In this document: one piece after another, positions 19,346-31,349 of the stretch
How positions within the stretch are numbered: position 1 is the first letter of the stretch
Layout of the letters: every line of letters starts with the position of its first letter
Origin: Mycobacterium marseillense
GTDB taxonomy: Bacteria; Actinomycetota; Actinomycetes; Mycobacteriales; Mycobacteriaceae
Assembly (NCBI RefSeq): GCF_010731675.1
Contig: NZ_AP022584.1
Coordinates: 5,332,001-5,396,000 of the forward strand
Direction: 5' to 3'
DNA length: 64,000 nt
Notes under the pieces: generated by a model
The model's database searches: none
What the model saw: only the letters and a program-made list of their open reading frames with translations
What the model was told of the DNA's origin: nothing
Translations under genes and position numbers: made by a program

Positions 19346-22592
<3,247 letters not shown>

Positions 22593-22956: not shown

Positions 22957-24165
22957 TCAGGCCGAGACGGGCTTCTTCGAAGCCGGCGCGGACACCTTCA
23001 TCAGCTTCATCAGATTGCCGCCCATGATCTTTGCCTTGTCCTCGTCGCTGAAGTCGGCCAGCTCGTCGACGAAGGTGATCGGATCTTTGAGGCCCTCGGG
23101 GTGCGGCCAGTCGGATCCGAAGACCACCCGGTCGGTGCCCACCATGTTGACGATCTCGGTGAACCGGTCCTCCCAGAACGGGCTGACGTAGACGCACCGC
23201 TTGAACGTGTCGATCGGGTCCTCGGCGAACGCCTGCGGCATCTTCTTGTAGACGCCCTTGAGGCCGCGGAACAGGGTCGGCACCCAGTCGGCGCCGTTCT
23301 CGATCGACAGTATCCGCAGGTCAGGGTTGCGGGTCAGCGCGCCGTGGCAGATCAGGGCGCCAAACGCATCCTCGATGGGGCGATGGCCCATGGCCAGGCT
23401 GCGGAAGGCGGTCGGCTTGAACGGCAGGAACTCGTCGCCGGGCTCCCAGATGTTGAGCAATTCGGAGTAGCCGCTGTCTGAAGCGTGCATCGAAACGGGG
23501 ATCTCGGCACGCACGCAGGCCTGCCAGAACGGATCGAACTCTTCGAGCCCGAACGAGCGGCTGCCGCGGTAGCCGGGCACCGGCGCCGGACGGACCAGCA
23601 CGGTGCGGGCGCCGCGTTCCAGGCACCACTCCAACTCCTCGAGCGCCCGGTCCACGATCGGCAGCGTGATCACCGGGGTGGCGAAGATGCGGTCCTGGTA
23701 GTTGAACGACCACTGCTCGTACATCCACTCGTTGAGCGCGTGGATGACGTCATGGGTCATCTCCGGGTCGTCCTTCATGCGCTCCTCGACCAGGCTGGCC
23801 AGTGTCGGGAACATCAGCGCGAAGTCGATGCCGAGCTCGTCCATGACCTCCAGGCGCGCGCCCGGTTCGCGGAAGGCCGGGATGGCTTTCATTGGCTCGC
23901 CGAGGATTTCGCGGTAGCTCTTGCCCTGCGAGCCGTTGCGGAAGTAGTCCTCCTGGGCGCCCGGGCGGGCCACCACCTCGAACGTCGGGTTGGGGATGTA
24001 TTCGCTGATGTGGCCGCGCACCACGATCTTGGTGCGGCCGCGGACCTGGACGTAGTCGATGACGTTCTTGCGCTTGTCCGGGAGGAACTTGGTCAGCGCC
24101 TCCTGCGGTTCGTACATGTGGTTGTCCGCGTCGAAAACGGGGAAGGGAAGCTCGCGAGAGGGCAT
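22957..24165 (-). CDS. Amidohydrolase-2 family metal-dependent hydrolase
   Basis: A 402-residue TIM-barrel amidohydrolase. The N-terminal metal motif is FDADNHMYE, a His is in VSMHASDSG, a second conserved region is HGALTRNPDLRIL, and the C-terminal metal Asp is in FGSDWPHPEG. Family members perform hydrolysis, decarboxylation or retro-aldol type reactions on ring-derived acids. The ATG at 24165 is chosen because AAGGAGATCGCC precedes it directly; an in-frame start 33 bases earlier has no such site. A 17-bp palindrome lies about 40 bases upstream, so regulation by the adjacent TetR-type gene is likely. Confidence 0.88.
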   Translation of the reverse strand: MPSRELPFPVFDADNHMYEPQEALTKFLPDKRKNVIDYVQVRGRTKIVVRGHISEYIPNPTFEVVARPGAQEDYFRNGSQGKSYREILGEPMKAIPAFREPGARLEVMDELGIDFALMFPTLASLVEERMKDDPEMTHDVIHALNEWMYEQWSFNYQDRIFATPVITLPIVDRALEELEWCLERGARTVLVRPAPVPGYRGSRSFGLEEFDPFWQACVRAEIPVSMHASDSGYSELLNIWEPGDEFLPFKPTAFRSLAMGHRPIEDAFGALICHGALTRNPDLRILSIENGADWVPTLFRGLKGVYKKMPQAFAEDPIDTFKRCVYVSPFWEDRFTEIVNMVGTDRVVFGSDWPHPEGLKDPITFVDELADFSDEDKAKIMGGNLMKLMKVSAPASKKPVSA

Positions 24166-24202
24166 GGCGATCTCCTTGTAAAAGGCCGAAATTCTCACTG
24201 CG

Positions 24203-24219
24203 TGGTAACGACGTTACCA
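24203..24219. promoter_or_regulatory. 17-bp palindrome, candidate TetR operator
   Basis: TGGTAACGACGTTACCA has perfect 8-bp arms around a single central base. It lies between the end of the TetR-hotdog gene and the start of the amidohydrolase, both on the minus strand, 38 bases before the amidohydrolase ATG. A partial match GGTTACC occurs at 25336-25342 in front of the TetR gene itself, consistent with autoregulation. Confidence 0.65.
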
Positions 24220-24245
24220 CCGTTGGGCGACGAGGTGTACCGGCG

Positions 24246-25289
24246 CTACCCGTCCGTTCGCGGCCCGATCGTCGGCGTCGCGCCGTTGATGATGGCGAAG
24301 TTCACGGTGGCCGTGGCGAGGAGTTCGTCCTCGTCGTCGCCGTCGCCGTCGCCGAAGATGTCGACCTGCATCACCATCGCCCGTCGTCCGGATCGCAACA
24401 CCTTGGGCACCGCGAACGCCGAGCCCTGCCGGACGGGCCGCAGGTAGCGGACGAACAGATCCGAGGTCGTCATCGTGGTGCCCGGCTGCAGATAATCCAG
24501 TCCGAATTGGCCGCCCGCCACATCCACCAGCGTCGCGATCAAACCGCCCTGCAGGGCGCCGGACGTGTTGACCACCTGCGGGCTGACGGGCATGGTCATC
24601 GCGAATTCGCCGTTGCGGCTGCCCGGGCGCATGCCGATCTGTGCGAACAGCTCGGCCAGCGACGGGCCCGGCGACCCTTGATCGGTCTCGCGGATGCCGA
24701 GCGCGCGGCTGCAGAAGTCGTAGAGCTGGCCGGTGTCGACGGGTGCGCCGTTCAATTCCGAACCCAGCCAATGCAATCGCTGCGCACCCATCACCGTTTG
24801 CATGACGATGGCCGCGGCTGCGCCGACGTCCAATCCGGGGTTGAAGACCCCCTCGGTGATCCCCTGCCCGACGATGTCGCGAATCAGTCGGTGCAGCGGT
24901 GAGAGCACCCGGGCGTAGTCGAGGGGGCGGGTCTCGGCCAAGTGCTGGTTGTAGAGGGTCAGGGCCCGGTTCAGGCTGTCCTGGGTGCTCGATTCCGCTT
25001 GCTGGCTGAGTCGGTCGATCAGCAATTTCAGTGCCGAGGTGCTGTCCAGCGTCATGGTTTCGGCGCGCCACGCCTGCACCGATTGGGCGATGGTTCTGTC
25101 GAACAGCGCCAGCAGCAATTCGTCCTTGCTGCTGAAGTGTTGGTAGAAGGCGCGCAGCGACGTCTTGGAGCGGGCGACGACCTCCTGCACGGTGAAGTCG
25201 GTGCGTCCCGTTTCCCCCAGAATGGCGACGGCGGTCTTGATGAAGCGGTCGCCGCGCGTCACTTCGGCTTCGTCGTTGAGGGCGGTCAT
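24246..25289 (-). CDS. TetR-type DNA-binding domain fused to a PaaI-like hotdog domain
   Basis: A 347-residue single chain. Residues ~10-60 form a TetR helix-turn-helix (FTVQEVVARSKTSLRAFYQHF), followed by a helical region to ~200 such as a TetR ligand-binding domain has. Residues ~225-335 then read as a hotdog thioesterase domain: NTSGALQGGLIATLVDVAGG, then TTMTTSDLFVRYLRPVRQG and a final ATATVNFAII strand. The usual His of the HGG motif is Gln247, while Asp256 is kept. TetR proteins average ~200 residues, so the fusion is real and in one uninterrupted frame. An acyl-CoA or acyl-chain sensor is a plausible role (inference). Confidence 0.85.
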   Translation of the reverse strand: MTALNDEAEVTRGDRFIKTAVAILGETGRTDFTVQEVVARSKTSLRAFYQHFSSKDELLLALFDRTIAQSVQAWRAETMTLDSTSALKLLIDRLSQQAESSTQDSLNRALTLYNQHLAETRPLDYARVLSPLHRLIRDIVGQGITEGVFNPGLDVGAAAAIVMQTVMGAQRLHWLGSELNGAPVDTGQLYDFCSRALGIRETDQGSPGPSLAELFAQIGMRPGSRNGEFAMTMPVSPQVVNTSGALQGGLIATLVDVAGGQFGLDYLQPGTTMTTSDLFVRYLRPVRQGSAFAVPKVLRSGRRAMVMQVDIFGDGDGDDEDELLATATVNFAIINGATPTIGPRTDG

Positions 25290-25415
25290 CGGCGCTGTTC
25301 CCTTCCGTGGCGCAATCCTTGCGCTCCGAGAATGAGGTTACCGCGCCGGGCGGCGTGTCCGCGAAGCCAGATTTTCTGGTCATCTCGCCGGGGGCGCGGA
25401 CGGCAGACGCGGCGC

Positions 25416-26933
25416 TCAGCCGCCCCGGGCCTCGATCATCGCCGAGCGATTGACCTTGGTGGCCGCGGTGCGCGGTATCGCGTCGACGAACTCCACCGTC
25501 TTGGGCGCCTTGTAGGGCGCCAGGCGGCCCTTCGCGTAGTCGATCACGCCCTGCTCGGTGAGCGGCTCGGCGCCGTCGCGATCGGCGCGCTGGATCACCG
25601 CGTGCACGCGGCGCCCCCACTGCGGATCGGCAAGCCCGATCACGACGACATCCGCGATCTCGGGATGGCCGGCGAGCGCCGACTCGACCTCGGCCGGAAA
25701 GACATTGGCGCCCCCACTGACGATCATGTCCACCCGGCGGTCCACGATGTAGAGAAAGCCGTCCTCGTCGAGATGGCCCATGTCCCCGGCGGAGCGGAAG
25801 CCGTCTTCGGTCGATGGCAATGGCGGTGCCCCGCCCAGGTAGCGGTACCCCGCGCTCATCGGGGCCCGCAGATACACGTCCCCGTCCTCGCCGGGGCCCA
25901 ATGGCCGCTTCTCGGCGTCCAGAATCCGGATCTCGGTGTCCCGGAAACCGCGACCCACGCTGCCCGGGTGAGCGAGCCACTCGTCGCCGCGCAGCGCGGT
26001 CAGGCCTAGGTTTTCGGTCATGCCGTACGCCGTCACGATCTGCTCCGGGCTGAGCAGTTCGAACCAGGTGTGCAGCAGCGAGGGCGGCATCACCGCGGCG
26101 CCCTGCAGGATGAAGACGATGCTGGACAGGTCGCGCTGCCGGACGTCGGGCCGGGCCGCGATGCGCGCCAGCATGGTGGGCGTCGCCGTGAAGTTGGTGA
26201 CCCGGAATCGCTCGATCACATCGAGAGCCAGTGCGGCGTCGAACTTTTCGAGTATCACCAGCTGGTCGCCCGCCAGCAGCATGAGGAAGGTGGCGAAGCC
26301 GTTGGTGTGATACATCGGCGCGGGCACCATGATGGTCTGCGGCTGGGAAACCGGTGTCCAGTTCGACAGGAACGGCTCCCCCTGCTGGGGGATCCACAGC
26401 GACGGCGCCAGGTTCAGGATCACCTTGGGCACGCCGGTCGAACCGCTGCTGCAGATCCCGTTGGCGGTGGGGGAGACGGCCACCGGCAGCGGACCGTCCG
26501 ACTCGCCGGCCGCGCGGGCGTCGAGCTCCCAGCGGCTCGTTTCGTCGACGACGACGGCGGGATCGATCACCTCGCGTACCCGGTCGCGCTCCCACTCGGG
26601 AAGGTCCCAGTGCATGGGCACCGGAACCGCGCCGATCTTCCAGCAGCCCAGCGTCGCCAGCACCAGATGCTGGGAATTCGGAATAGCAAGCGCCACAAGG
26701 GATCCAGTTCCGGCGCCGCTGGCGGCAAGGGCGCGGCCCCACTGGTTGGCGCGGGCGTCGAGCTCACCGAACGTCAGCGTCTGCGCGGTGCCGTCGAGCG
26801 CCACGACCGTGACGCCAGTATCGTCCCGGCGTTGTTCGGCGAGCTCGTGCAGCTTGGTTCCGAACGGAACTCCGTCCGCGAACGGGTTTGCCACCGCTTC
26901 AGCCGCGACGGGTTCGGTACTCAATTGAGCCAC
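25416..26933 (-). CDS. Acyl-CoA synthetase (AMP-binding ligase)
   Basis: A 505-residue ANL-type ligase. The phosphate loop is CSSGSTGVPKVIL, the acceptor region YGMTENLG, the hinge DRRVDMIVSGGANVFPAEVE and the C-terminal catalytic Lys is in RTAATKVNRSAM. It would form an acyl-CoA from a free acid in the cytosol. It is the last gene of an operon with four acyl-CoA dehydrogenases and follows the nearest one by 18 bases, so it presumably feeds those dehydrogenases with substrate. Confidence 0.9.
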   Translation of the reverse strand: MAQLSTEPVAAEAVANPFADGVPFGTKLHELAEQRRDDTGVTVVALDGTAQTLTFGELDARANQWGRALAASGAGTGSLVALAIPNSQHLVLATLGCWKIGAVPVPMHWDLPEWERDRVREVIDPAVVVDETSRWELDARAAGESDGPLPVAVSPTANGICSSGSTGVPKVILNLAPSLWIPQQGEPFLSNWTPVSQPQTIMVPAPMYHTNGFATFLMLLAGDQLVILEKFDAALALDVIERFRVTNFTATPTMLARIAARPDVRQRDLSSIVFILQGAAVMPPSLLHTWFELLSPEQIVTAYGMTENLGLTALRGDEWLAHPGSVGRGFRDTEIRILDAEKRPLGPGEDGDVYLRAPMSAGYRYLGGAPPLPSTEDGFRSAGDMGHLDEDGFLYIVDRRVDMIVSGGANVFPAEVESALAGHPEIADVVVIGLADPQWGRRVHAVIQRADRDGAEPLTEQGVIDYAKGRLAPYKAPKTVEFVDAIPRTAATKVNRSAMIEARGG

Positions 26934-26951: not shown

Positions 26952-27887
26952 CTAGGCGGATACCGGGTCGCTGAACAGGGTTTCCAGCGACCCGTCCGAC
27001 ACGCTGGGCATTAGGCGCAGTGCGAGTTCGTCGGTGCCCAGCGGCAACCGGACCAGCGGCTGGGTGTGCCGGTCGAGCACGCTGACGTCGGACTCGTCGC
27101 AGAAACCCAGGGCCCCGAGTAACTGGTGCGACGTGCGCATCACCTGCCGCGCGGTGTCGGCGGCCTTGAGCCGCAGCACCAGGGCGTCCGCCGAATGGAT
27201 CTGCGCCGGCAACGATTCGGGTCGACAAATCGTGTACTTCGCGAGTTCGTGCAGCCCCCGGACCGCGACGGCGGCGTCCGCGACGGCAAACCTGACGGCC
27301 TGAAAGTCCGCGAGCGGCTTCCCGAACTGAACCCGGGCGCGCACGTGCTCGGTGACAATCTGCAACGACTGCTGCACCGATCCCAGAATCCGCCATGATC
27401 CCAGCACGAGATGAAGGTTAACGTCGGCGGCCGGGACGCTGCCCTCGGGTGCGCCCACCGTGGCCGGAACCAAGAACGGCCCCAGCTTGGCGCCGGTGCG
27501 CGCCGCCGGCTGCGGCCGGTACCGATTGCCGTCCAGGTCCGCGGCGATCCAGTCGCCGGCCAGATCGCCGTGATCGATGCGCGGGGCTTTCGGATTCACC
27601 AGGGCCAGGCGCGCGCCGTCGATCGACAGCAGCTCCTCCACCAGGGGATAGGGCAGCACGGTGGCGCCGGCGGCCTGGCACAGCACCGCGGCGGCCAGCA
27701 GATCGTCGGGGGCCGAGCGCACGTCGAGGTCGAATGCGCCCACTTCGTTCAAGGCGGCGCGCGCCGCGTCACGGACGGAGTCGTCGGTCTCGGCGCGCAG
27801 CGCGGCCGGCGGTCCGCCCAACCGGGTGAGCCGCTTGCCGACGACGGCGGCGAAATCGCTGATGTCCTGTGGCAGATCGGTTTTCAC
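26952..27887 (-). CDS. Short acyl-CoA dehydrogenase-like subunit
   Basis: A 311-residue ACAD-fold protein, shorter than a full-length enzyme (~380). It has RVQFGKPLADFQAVRF in the C-terminal helical domain, then MRTSHQLLGALGFCDESDVSVLDRH in place of the usual WEHDLHLY segment. The GTG start overlaps the previous stop and has GGGAGGAAG upstream. Such short subunits typically pair with a full-length ACAD; its neighbour 27884-29041 is the natural partner. Confidence 0.82.
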   Translation of the reverse strand: MKTDLPQDISDFAAVVGKRLTRLGGPPAALRAETDDSVRDAARAALNEVGAFDLDVRSAPDDLLAAAVLCQAAGATVLPYPLVEELLSIDGARLALVNPKAPRIDHGDLAGDWIAADLDGNRYRPQPAARTGAKLGPFLVPATVGAPEGSVPAADVNLHLVLGSWRILGSVQQSLQIVTEHVRARVQFGKPLADFQAVRFAVADAAVAVRGLHELAKYTICRPESLPAQIHSADALVLRLKAADTARQVMRTSHQLLGALGFCDESDVSVLDRHTQPLVRLPLGTDELALRLMPSVSDGSLETLFSDPVSA

Positions 27888-29041
27888 CGGCTTCCTCCCA
27901 ACACGTCTCGTGCCACCAGCATCTTCTGCACTTCGATGGTGCCCGATGCGACGGTGGCCGCCTGTGCGTAACGCCAATGGTCTTCAATCGCCCCGTGCAG
28001 CGGTGCGGAACTGCCGCTGTCCAGCGCCGTGGCACCCAGCACGTCGAACAGCAGCTCGGCCACCTGCTGATCGAGGGTTGTCGTGACGATGCGAGCGGCG
28101 CTGGCGGCCGCACCGGCCGCCGGGTCGTCCTGCAGTGACACGGCGCGATAGGCCAGCAGCCGGGCGACCCTCAGGTCGACCAGCGCCCGCACCCATCGGG
28201 TACGGATCGTCTCGGGCAGCTCATCCCACTCGTCACCGAGCTGGCTGCGCATCCGTTCGAGCAGCGACTCGCACCGCGCGTACCGGGCGATGCCCACCCG
28301 CTCGAAGGCCAGCGCCTCGCGCATCACCCGCCATCCGTCGCCGACCTCGCCGAGTACGTCGCCGGGAAACGCCTGCACGTCGTCCAGGAACATCTCGTTG
28401 AGGTGGTGCGGCCCCAGCATCGACGGGATCGGCCGGACGGTGAAACCGGGGCGGTCCATCGGGATCAGAAACAGGGTGAGCCGCTTGTGTTTTGGGGCGT
28501 CGGGGTCGGTGCACGCCGCCAGCACGCACCACGACGCCATCAGGGCGTACGACGTCCACACCTTCTGCCCGGTGATGCGCCATCCGTCACCGTCGGCGAC
28601 GGCGCGGGTACGCAACGACACCAGGTCCGTTCCCGCCTCCGGCTCCGAAAATCCCTGGCACCAGATCACATCCCCCGCGGCGATGGCCGCCAGGTGCTTG
28701 GCCTTCTGTTCCTCGGTCCCGTAGCGCATCAGCGCCGGCCCGACCCAGTTGATCCCCATGTACTGCGGGCCGCGCGGCTCGTGTTGGGCCCACATCTCTT
28801 CGCGCAGCACCGTCTGCTGCCAGACCGAACCCCCGCCGCCGCCATGCTCTTTCGGCCATGCCAGCGCCAGCAGCCCCTCGGTGGCCAGCAGCTTGCAGAA
28901 CGTCTCGGTAGTGGCGAGGTCCTGCGGGTTTTCGGTGCAGGCGCCGAGGAAGTCGGCCGGGATGTGGTTGGCCACCAGCTCACGCAGGTGGCTTCGCAGT
29001 TGTCCGGCGTCGTCGCCGAGGTCGTAATCCATCGTGCTCAT
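27884..29041 (-). CDS. Acyl-CoA dehydrogenase, full-length subunit
   Basis: A 385-residue ACAD with WCQGFSEPEAGTDLVSLRTRA, GQKVWTSYALMASWCVLAA and the C-terminal ATVASGTIEVQKMLVARDVLG. The last motif has Ser where ordinary ACADs carry the catalytic Glu. The ATG at 29041 is chosen since it overlaps the previous stop as ATGA; longer frames extend into the upstream ACAD in a nonsense composition. It is the third of four ACAD genes in the operon. Confidence 0.88.
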   Translation of the reverse strand: MSTMDYDLGDDAGQLRSHLRELVANHIPADFLGACTENPQDLATTETFCKLLATEGLLALAWPKEHGGGGGSVWQQTVLREEMWAQHEPRGPQYMGINWVGPALMRYGTEEQKAKHLAAIAAGDVIWCQGFSEPEAGTDLVSLRTRAVADGDGWRITGQKVWTSYALMASWCVLAACTDPDAPKHKRLTLFLIPMDRPGFTVRPIPSMLGPHHLNEMFLDDVQAFPGDVLGEVGDGWRVMREALAFERVGIARYARCESLLERMRSQLGDEWDELPETIRTRWVRALVDLRVARLLAYRAVSLQDDPAAGAAASAARIVTTTLDQQVAELLFDVLGATALDSGSSAPLHGAIEDHWRYAQAATVASGTIEVQKMLVARDVLGGSR

Positions 29042-30144
29042 CCCTTCGGCAGTCCGAGCAGCCGCTCGGCGATGATGTTGCGCTGCACCTCCGACGTGCC
29101 GCCGTAGATGGTCGAGGCCAGCGCGTCCTGACGTTCGAACAGAAGATCCGGATCCGCGGCCGACTCCGGGCCCGCCGCGGCCGCACCGAGTTCCCAAACA
29201 CGCTGCAACGTCAGCGATCCGAGCAGCTTCATGGTGTCGGCTTCCGGGCTGGGCCGCCCCGCCAGCTCGTTGCCCAGCGCGCGGTATCCGGTGGCCCGCA
29301 ACGCTTCGGCGTCGGCGAGCAGCGAGCCGAGCTCGGTGTAGACGTCGTCTCCCGAGACGCCGGCGCCGGCGGCACGCACCGCGTCGAGTCCGCGTTTGAT
29401 CTCGACCCAGTTCATGATCCAGATCATCTGGCGTTCATGCTGCAGCGACGACAAGGCGACATTCCAGCCGCCGTTGAGCGGCCCCAGCAGGTTGTCGGCC
29501 GGCACCTCGACGTCGTCGAGGAAGACCTCGCAGAACGTCTCGTCGGAGATCGACGCCATGCGGATGGGCTCGATCCTGACCCCGGGCGCGTGCAGATCCA
29601 GAATCAGGCACGAGATGCCGCGGTGTTTCGGCGCATCGGGATTCGTGCGGGCGTACAGGGTGCACCATCGTGACTCGTGGGCCTGGGTGGTCCAGATCTT
29701 GTGGCCGTTGACCCGGAACACATCCCCATCGCGTTCGGCGCGCGTGCGCAGCCCCGCGAAATCGGACCCGGCTTCGGGTTCGGACATCCCCAGCGCCCAC
29801 CACTCGTCACCGCGGAGCAGTGGAACGAGCAGGCGCTCTATTTGGGCGGCGGTGCCGAACTGACGAATGCCCGGCGCGGCGACGTTGGGGCCGGCGATAT
29901 TGGGCAGCTTGGGCGCCGAGCGCAACGCGGCCTCGAGCCGGACCTCCATGGCGTCGCGCAAACCCAGGGACCGGCCGCCGTGCTCGCGGGGCCAGGTCGG
30001 CTGGATCCACCCGGCCTCGAAGGCGGCCCGCTGGTAGTCGCGCCGCAGGCCCAGGTCCCATCGGTACTGCCGATTCTTCTCGTAGTAGTCGTCGGGCAGA
30101 AACTCCGCCAACCACGTCCCGAATTCGTCAACAACTGCGCTCAC
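29038..30144 (-). CDS. Acyl-CoA dehydrogenase, full-length subunit
   Basis: A 368-residue ACAD. Signatures are GMSEPEAGSDFAGLRTRA, GHKIWTTQAHESRWCTLYARTN and the C-terminal ASTIYGGTSEVQRNIIAERLLG, again with Gly at the usual catalytic Glu position. GTG start 51 bases after the first ACAD of the operon. The pattern matches the larger flavin-binding subunit of paired FadE enzymes. Likely partner: the ACAD at 30196-31275. Confidence 0.9.
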   Translation of the reverse strand: MSAVVDEFGTWLAEFLPDDYYEKNRQYRWDLGLRRDYQRAAFEAGWIQPTWPREHGGRSLGLRDAMEVRLEAALRSAPKLPNIAGPNVAAPGIRQFGTAAQIERLLVPLLRGDEWWALGMSEPEAGSDFAGLRTRAERDGDVFRVNGHKIWTTQAHESRWCTLYARTNPDAPKHRGISCLILDLHAPGVRIEPIRMASISDETFCEVFLDDVEVPADNLLGPLNGGWNVALSSLQHERQMIWIMNWVEIKRGLDAVRAAGAGVSGDDVYTELGSLLADAEALRATGYRALGNELAGRPSPEADTMKLLGSLTLQRVWELGAAAAGPESAADPDLLFERQDALASTIYGGTSEVQRNIIAERLLGLPKG

Positions 30145-30195
30145 CGGCGCCGCACCTCCTCATCGCTGCGCGCTCTGCATCGTCGTCGGTGCGGC

Positions 30196-31275
30196 TCACG
30201 CTGCGCCCCCGCAGAATCGGCGGCCGACCTCGTGATAGAGCGCGCGACTGTCGCCCAGCAGTGCGGCGCCCTGCCAGGCGCGCCGGACGTAGAGGTGGAC
30301 GTCGTGCTCCCAGGTCTGTCCGAGCGCGCCGTGCACCTGGACCGCGGTGCGCGCACAACCGGCGGCCGCGTCACCGGCCGCCGCCTTGGCGAGCGCGGCG
30401 GCGGTCCACGCCTTGCCGGGCGTCGCGGCCGGATCGGTGAGTCGGGCCGCGGCCGCATAGGTGAGACTGCGGGCGCGTTCCAGGCCGACGTAGTTGTCGG
30501 CCAGCGCGTGCTTGATCCCCTGGAATGCGCCGATCGGTTGGCCGAACTGGCGCCGCGACTTCGCGTGCTCGACCGAGCGGCGCAACGCGGCGCCCGCGAC
30601 GCCGATCAGGTCGGCGGCGCAGGCCACCCACGGCACCGTCAGCGCCGCCTCGACGTCGACGCTCGCGACGGCCGCGGGCTCGGCGTCGACGTCGGCCGTC
30701 GCCAACGGCTGGGCGGGGTCGGTGGCTTCAGCCGCGGGCACCACGGTGACGCCGTCGCCGCATCGCACGACCGCCGCCACGGTGTCACCGGTGTCGTCGC
30801 GGGCGAGCGTGACGACCAGCTCGGCGCGCGCCAGGTGGGGGACGGCGACCGCGCGGCCGCGCAGCCGCCCGTCACGCAGGGTCATCGGCGCACCGGGCAG
30901 GCGCGACCCGGGTGCGTGGACGGCCAGGGTGGCCACGGTGCCACCGGCGATGTCGGCCAGGATCGAATCGAGCGCGGCGTCGCGCAGCACGCCGGCGGCC
31001 AGACCGACGCTGCTCAGCAAGGGGATCGGCGCGAGGGCGGCACCACATTCCTCCAGAACCACGGCGAGCTCGACCGGCCCGTAGTCGCCCGCCCCTTCCC
31101 CCGAGGGGGCGGCGAGCTCGGTCCACCCCAGGTCCACGACCGTCTTCCACAGGGCGCGCCAGCGCTCCGGATCCGTGATCGCTTGACGGGCGGCCTCAGG
31201 CGGGCACTCCGTACGTAAGATGTCGCGAACGGTGTCGCGCAGCGACAACTGTTCCGAGTTCAGCCCTACTTCCAT
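30196..31275 (-). CDS. Acyl-CoA dehydrogenase-like subunit, first gene of operon
   Basis: A 359-residue ACAD with an Ala-rich, divergent middle domain. The C-terminal domain has SRRQFGQPIGAFQGIKHALAD and VQVHGALGQTWEHDVHLYVRR, as in the smaller subunits of paired FadE proteins. The ATG at 31275 has AGAGG upstream; an extension of 17 codons would run through the promoter element at 31282-31301. Together with the next gene it should form one heteromeric dehydrogenase. Confidence 0.87.
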   Translation of the reverse strand: MEVGLNSEQLSLRDTVRDILRTECPPEAARQAITDPERWRALWKTVVDLGWTELAAPSGEGAGDYGPVELAVVLEECGAALAPIPLLSSVGLAAGVLRDAALDSILADIAGGTVATLAVHAPGSRLPGAPMTLRDGRLRGRAVAVPHLARAELVVTLARDDTGDTVAAVVRCGDGVTVVPAAEATDPAQPLATADVDAEPAAVASVDVEAALTVPWVACAADLIGVAGAALRRSVEHAKSRRQFGQPIGAFQGIKHALADNYVGLERARSLTYAAAARLTDPAATPGKAWTAAALAKAAAGDAAAGCARTAVQVHGALGQTWEHDVHLYVRRAWQGAALLGDSRALYHEVGRRFCGGAA

Positions 31276-31281
31276 AAGACC

Positions 31282-31301
31282 TCTAACATAGTAAAGATAA
31301 T
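31282..31301 (-). promoter_or_regulatory. Shared element copy in front of the four-ACAD operon
   Basis: Minus strand ATTATCTTTACTATGTTAGA, i.e. TTAT-N10-TTAG with a central TACTAT that fits TANNNT. It ends only 6 bases before the ATG of the first ACAD, so if TACTAT is the -10 box the transcript has a very short leader. The divergent LLM gene starts 49 bases to the right. Confidence 0.6.
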
Positions 31302-31349
31302 AATCTAGCCCTGCCGTCAATCGCACGGGGCCGGACGCATAGGTGGCGC

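Follow-up and report, generated by a model that had tools for sequence, protein, structure and literature searches.

Organization of the locus

On the minus strand at 24246–25289 lies a gene that opens with an ATG and encodes a single uninterrupted chain of 347 amino acids, in which a TetR-like regulator is joined through a linker to a hotdog domain. Positions are those of the window, by which we mean the whole 64-kb stretch of DNA analysed. The fusion gene and the features around it are as follows.

22957–24165, minus strand: gene for an amidohydrolase-fold enzyme (PF04909), the apparent target; ATG behind an AAGGAG (start in the open reading frame list, GTG 24198)
24203–24219, minus strand: putative operator, TGGTAACG-T-CGTTACCA in the minus-strand reading, in the amidohydrolase promoter region; recognized by conservation across loci
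24246–25289, minus strand: TetR–hotdog fusion gene, 347 amino acids (TetR ~1–200, linker ~199–211, hotdog ~212–334); from the reading frame and profiles
25327–25343, minus strand: operator-like sequence CGGTAACCTCATTCTCG, half-degenerate, ahead of the fusion gene; a 16-base pattern is conserved
25416–26933, minus strand: FadD-like acyl-CoA ligase gene, the upstream neighbour; from profile annotation and locus comparison
26952–31326, minus strand: four FadE-like acyl-CoA dehydrogenase genes, upstream of fadD; from profile annotation

Among solved structures, the closest relatives of the amidohydrolase-fold protein are the putative hydrolase 4dzi and, at E 4.6e-21, PtmU3. The available part of the report on PtmU3 describes a diiron monooxygenase whose substrates are diterpenoid-CoA intermediates (PMC10127204); given this relative, the label ‘amidohydrolase’ for 22957–24165 may be misleading. 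The fadD gene lies upstream in five of ten fusion loci examined, so that the link to a pathway is loose apart from the amidohydrolase. The predicted gene content points to catabolism via CoA esters, with a ring compound possibly being the class of substrate.

Within the FadE cluster, the protein encoded at 26952–27977 (minus strand) matches only C-terminal acyl-CoA dehydrogenase models in Pfam and adjoins three-domain FadE genes. Beyond the amidohydrolase gene, at 20583–22550 (minus strand), PAS, SpoIIE phosphatase, HATPase and STAS domains are united in one protein (Pfam), apparently a whole anti-sigma-type switch in a single chain. In a second cluster of the same genome (L189; G000:C1:157000–172000), a TetR regulator, an amidohydrolase, acyl-CoA dehydrogenases (FadE) and a hotdog with a QGG motif are encoded by separate genes, all distant relatives of the window's parts.

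A TetR regulator and a hotdog domain in one chain

The N-terminal part of the fusion matches Pfam TetR_N (PF00440, residues 17–62, E 9.9e-10) and the C-terminal part Pfam 4HBT (PF03061, residues 245–316, E 6.4e-11), both above the gathering score, with the NCBIfam hotdog thioesterase model TIGR00369 covering residues 226–314 (E 7.1e-15, above its cut-off). The preliminary description of this DNA, made from the letters alone, had placed a TetR protein and a hotdog domain in one uninterrupted frame, and the 347-residue reading frame and these matches bear it out. From the sequence profiles we infer a hotdog fold for the C-terminal domain, whose nearest solved structures by sequence are PaaI-type thioesterases.

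Nearest to the N-terminal half by sequence are structures of TetR proteins, FadR and KstR2 among them; several uncharacterized TetR proteins outscore these two, and gamma-butyrolactone receptors score slightly lower. On the same half, ScbR exceeds FadR in NCBIfam score with both far under their cut-offs, and the Pfam TetR_C models stay below theirs.

Distribution and origin of the fusion

Full-length fusions are present in 80 of 248 sampled Mycobacterium genomes, the genome studied here included, at 70–100% identity. A domain search for how widely the fusion is conserved, proposed in the preliminary description, is answered by this count, and a frame error or split gene is ruled out by it. Within the aligned part, a TAG is present in five of these 80 rows (G026, G029, G056, G073 and G157); in the first four it sits at the extreme C-terminal end and is the gene's own stop, the basis for G026, G056 and G073 being that residues ~216–336 are free of stops. 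The collection comprises 98 distinct fusion proteins, and named carriers among the best 80 of 285 relatives are M. colombiense, M. scrofulaceum, M. gordonae, M. asiaticum, M. gastri, M. persicum, M. triplex, M. bohemicum and others. The best match is a TetR in the range of the hotdog-less relatives in 106 of the 248 genomes, a count that takes best E-values of 1e-58 to 1e-77 as its sole measure, and it is weaker in the remaining 62.

No fusion was detected outside the genus at E ≤ 1e-30 among 301 family-level or 348 order-level genomes, or at E ≤ 1e-28 among 396 phylum-level genomes; these draws overlap and include the genus itself, the best 5–7 candidates were scored per genome, and unrelated TetR–hotdog fusions would be missed by such searches. 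A single TetR relative without a hotdog turned up in a different family in the order-level sample, and public plasmids gave no match to the fusion at E ≤ 1e-10. Homologues split into two genes, which would have told against a genuine fusion, were not seen either: no hotdog gene was found in the 12–13 kb surrounding any of the seven hotdog-less regulators at L040–L046.

Trees of the hotdog and TetR parts were each built with 21 of the 98 distinct fusions. In the hotdog tree the 21 fused rows lie on one side of a branch with support 90/88, beside a clade of 16 stand-alone hotdogs, a grouping most simply explained by a single fusion event. Fused rows likewise occupy one side of a branch in the TetR tree (support 64/93), which has very long outgroups and a weak root and does not settle the direction between fused and hotdog-less forms. 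The stand-alone hotdogs of the sister clade measure 127–131 residues and begin near the start of the fused domain (MTAPQSIRELF... versus ...PSLAELF...), as expected for a fusion of whole genes. L183 (genome G114), where no more than a broken piece of the fusion's hotdog part was seen, was left out of the hotdog tree.

Around four stand-alone loci (L073–L076) there is no related TetR or amidohydrolase gene nearby; in L073–L075 the hotdog neighbours are what we take to be manA or ahcY. Across 118 genomes, the fusion occurs in 39 and a stand-alone relative (bit score about 95 or more) in 25, with both in none where about eight would be expected if they were independent, an exclusivity confounded by the relatedness of the species. 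At least two of the 25 stand-alone genomes (G048 and G095) fall outside the sister clade.

The hotdog active site

Nine residues of the hotdog domain are invariant in all 98 fusions: N241, G244, Q247, G248, G249, D256, T274, T275 and D277. In an alignment with THEM2 (chain 4ord), N241, G248, D256 and T275 fall on its N, G, D and S; the THEM2 active site consists of Asn50, Gly57, Asp65 and Ser83, according to the available part of the source (PMC13114782). The catalytic Asn/Gly/Asp/Ser-Thr set is thus complete in 98/98 fusions.

The histidine of the HGG motif is replaced by Gln247 in every fusion, and the preliminary description had correctly reported Gln247 and the retained Asp256 for the protein studied here. 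To take the glutamine as a particular loss of this protein does not hold: QGG is also the motif of every one of the 24 intact stand-alone relatives from mycobacteria that were read (the broken 25th, L183, has RGG), and the position is outside the THEM2 list. The histidine is doubtful as a family-defining feature because it does not belong to the active site listed for THEM2 in what is available of that source (PMC13114782). An impairment of catalysis by its absence was considered and is ruled out by the QGG of the stand-alone proteins, the invariant N/G/D/T and the THEM2 list.

Across about 1500 pairs, the hotdog has a median dN/dS of 0.14 and the TetR part one of 0.11, against 0.44 in the linker; at these values both halves are judged to be under purifying selection. 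The hotdog therefore looks CATALYTICALLY competent, and because its active site is intact we infer that it may hydrolyse acyl-CoA.

TetR proteins normally bind their ligand in the C-terminal region. The TetR half of the fusion keeps its own such region, which can be aligned along its length with that of the hotdog-less relatives, and this argues against a reading in which the hotdog would have given up catalysis, bind the acyl-CoA effector and signal to the TetR half as a pure sensor. Precedent for a hotdog as the effector domain of a repressor exists in FapR, as the accessible text on that protein has it (PMC3536700, PMC516016). FapR lost catalysis, again by the portion of the text available (PMC516016), whereas the catalytic set here is invariant in 98/98 fusions, and we hold a pure sensor of this kind to be distinctly unlikely.

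A conserved operator before the amidohydrolase gene

Between the fusion gene and its amidohydrolase neighbour is the 17-mer TGGTAACGACGTTACCA (24203–24219), consisting of two perfect 8-base arms around one central base; an additional outer pair (24202/24220) extends the palindrome to 19 bp. It lies 26 bases beyond the stop of the fusion and 37 bases ahead of the likely amidohydrolase ATG (24165), agreeing with the perfect 17-bp palindrome noted earlier between the two genes. The window contains 18 perfect palindromes with arms of 8 bases (gaps 0–4, nested ones counted) against 10–17 in five mononucleotide shuffles of it, and palindromicity itself was dropped as evidence for an operator, being at chance frequency.

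The site is set apart by its conservation. Downstream of the regulator, a site within two mismatches of TGGTAAYGNCRTTACCA is found in 97 of the 98 distinct fusion loci, and the amidohydrolase adjoins the fusion in 97 of 98; the sole locus without the operator, L156 (M. intermedium), is also the sole one without the amidohydrolase. The mean best mismatch over the 98 loci is 0.23, compared with 6.14 for palindromes with shuffled arms (lowest 1.04; up to 200 palindromes, scored on every fourth locus). In the aligned fusion loci, core columns 1–15 are 97–100% identical save one at 86%, and the flanks are mostly 32–75% identical, the exceptions being the preceding base (98%) and the GAGA of columns 23–26 (91–95%). 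From the end of the operator to the amidohydrolase ATG the distance is 28–53 bases, and 33–38 in 88 of 97 loci.

In the genome studied here the operator is present once. No further exact copy that would define a regulon occurs in it, and at three mismatches there are three other places, a number not above that of a reversed control pattern. We regard the 17-bp site as a real operator because it is conserved and has no second copy in the genome, not because it is palindromic. Little is left for an artefact, in which a frame error or chance read-through would have joined two genes beside a palindrome of chance origin: palindromes of this size do occur at chance frequency in the window, and one-frame chains of full length in 80/248 genomes, selection on both halves and the conserved operator have already refuted this explanation, whose probability we put at next to nothing.

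Mycobacterial –10 hexamers follow the consensus TANNNT. Such a hexamer, TAACGT (24211–24216), lies inside the operator and may be the –10 element of the amidohydrolase promoter; since the operator contains it, the most natural interpretation is that the repressor acts by covering the promoter. Five bases past the operator is a TGAGAA element (24192–24197, minus strand), kept in many fusion loci and absent in fusions L038, L039, L047 and L055 and in most hotdog-less loci seen.

A second site upstream of the fusion gene

Ahead of the fusion gene is a half-degenerate relative of the operator. Its 16-base pattern CGGTAAYCTCRTTCTC occurs exactly upstream of the regulator in all 98 distinct fusion loci (search over the 200 bases ahead of the expected start), keeping one operator half and a –10-like hexamer. 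In many fusions its right half is TTCTCA, the reverse complement of TGAGAA. Some hotdog-less relatives have more palindromic or fully palindromic versions at this position. Autoregulation through the upstream site is likely on this pattern, perhaps weaker than the control of the amidohydrolase target; that the site is half-degenerate in 98/98 fusions counts against the repressor model preferred below. As is usual for a TetR protein, there are sites beside the regulator's own gene and its neighbour: the half-degenerate one upstream in 98/98 loci and the conserved palindrome downstream in 97/98.

Most hotdog-less relatives keep the operator and its apparent target

Other members of Mycobacterium have related TetR regulators (57–65% identity) that have no hotdog. 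In 15 hotdog-less loci examined, the operator is found downstream within one mismatch in 14 and the amidohydrolase in 13, both being present jointly in 13. Operator and amidohydrolase are both missing from L077, which comes from another family. At L044, also hotdog-less, acyl-CoA dehydrogenase genes replace the amidohydrolase behind the operator, and a second operator-like copy adjoins.

The helix-turn-helix region (residues 12–65) has a common consensus at 41 of 54 positions between 40 fusions and 14 hotdog-less regulators, and in the stretch GRTDFTV-EVV-RSKTSLR-FYQHF the two groups differ only at the three hyphen positions. From the shared consensus and operator it follows that the DNA target belongs to the TetR half. 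The hotdog was probably added to an already working regulator, since operator and target are unchanged in most of the examined relatives that lack it. With the same operator and gene in 13/15 of these loci, regulation there would have no need of a hotdog, and the loci count partly against the hotdog being the sensor.

The hotdog-less loci also lend weight to the main rival of a coupled protein, a Rosetta-stone fusion in which the repressor and the thioesterase are tethered yet independent, serve the same pathway, and the hotdog, acting as an ordinary enzyme of that pathway, has no effect on DNA binding. Pure tethering would fit the joint presence of operator and target in 13/15 loci, the fast-evolving linker (median dN/dS 0.44) and the mutual exclusion of fusion (39) and stand-alone hotdog (25) in 118 genomes, where about eight co-occurrences were expected; several hotdog fusions of once-adjacent genes have moreover been described, going by the available part of the source (PMC516016). 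Set against it are the stand-alone hotdogs of L073–L076, which have no related TetR gene nearby, the confounding of exclusivity by phylogeny, with at least two of the 25 genomes (G048 and G095) outside the sister clade, and the oddity, as it would seem, of placing a pathway enzyme on a low-copy DNA-binding protein. We consider independence of the two halves possible, if on the whole improbable.

A model for the fusion protein

We prefer to see the fusion as a TetR repressor and a still-competent PaaI-type thioesterase brought together by one whole-gene fusion within Mycobacterium, released by acyl-CoA and with a hotdog that hydrolyses molecules of the inducer class, a model to which we give about an even chance. 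An acyl-CoA-responsive repressor with a working thioesterase is what the protein most likely is, as judged by sequence comparison. In this model a dimer would occupy the 17-bp site over the –10-like element and block the amidohydrolase promoter, whose repression by the TetR half is a well-supported prediction. The repressor would be released by a CoA thioester from the pathway encoded nearby (FadD, FadE and an amidohydrolase-fold enzyme with a relative that acts on CoA-linked substrate), a step proposed because of the gene content and, weakly, the TetR relatives; the thioester would probably act in the pocket of the TetR half, the way it does in FadR and KstR2. Ligands of this class could also be bound by the hotdog. 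Cleavage of acyl-CoA by the hotdog, the least certain step, would remove molecules of the inducer class and switch the repressor back off.

A stronger form of the model, tentative at best, is a self-extinguishing sensor: acyl-CoA would free the chain from the operator, the chain would hydrolyse that same acyl-CoA, induction would become a timed pulse, and the fusion would have arisen once and been kept. Hydrolysis of the inducer itself by the hotdog is the boldest step here, plausible though we would sooner doubt it. As the relatives would regulate at the operator without a hotdog, coupling between the two halves is no more than a possibility.

Comparison with known systems

FadR and KstR2 respond to acyl-CoA and, to our knowledge, have no hotdog domain. 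They are among the matches of the TetR half, although not the best, and the neighbouring genes here are those of acyl-CoA metabolism. The fused hotdog resembles the PaaI, THEM2 and TIGR00369 thioesterases in its domain match and its N/G/D/T catalytic positions, and differs from them in having Q for H in HGG and in being joined to a repressor. Unlike the fusion, the hotdog-less TetR regulators of Mycobacterium reach the common operator and amidohydrolase without any such domain.

The closest functional analogue, of a different family, is FapR, the malonyl-CoA repressor of Firmicutes (PMC516016, PMC3536700). According to the available portions of these sources, FapR likewise combines an N-terminal DNA-binding part with a C-terminal hotdog in a repressor tied to acyl-CoA metabolism, but has a DeoR-like helix-turn-helix and a hotdog for malonyl-CoA described as non-catalytic (PMC516016, PMC3536700). 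The fusion instead has a TetR half of normal length and a hotdog with its catalytic residues kept, and comes from a different phylum. Among the matches listed from the open-licence literature, no title or abstract concerned a TetR–hotdog or TetR–thioesterase fusion, and nothing relevant was listed for DitZ.

Bacterial one-component regulators normally bind their ligand passively. If the model is right, a repressor with an intact catalytic site for its probable class of ligand would represent a different design of control, in which a single chain may detect a type of signal molecule and also clear it. Within a single genus, the same operator and target are available with and without the enzyme half, a natural control through which the contribution of an enzyme domain to a repressor becomes directly testable.
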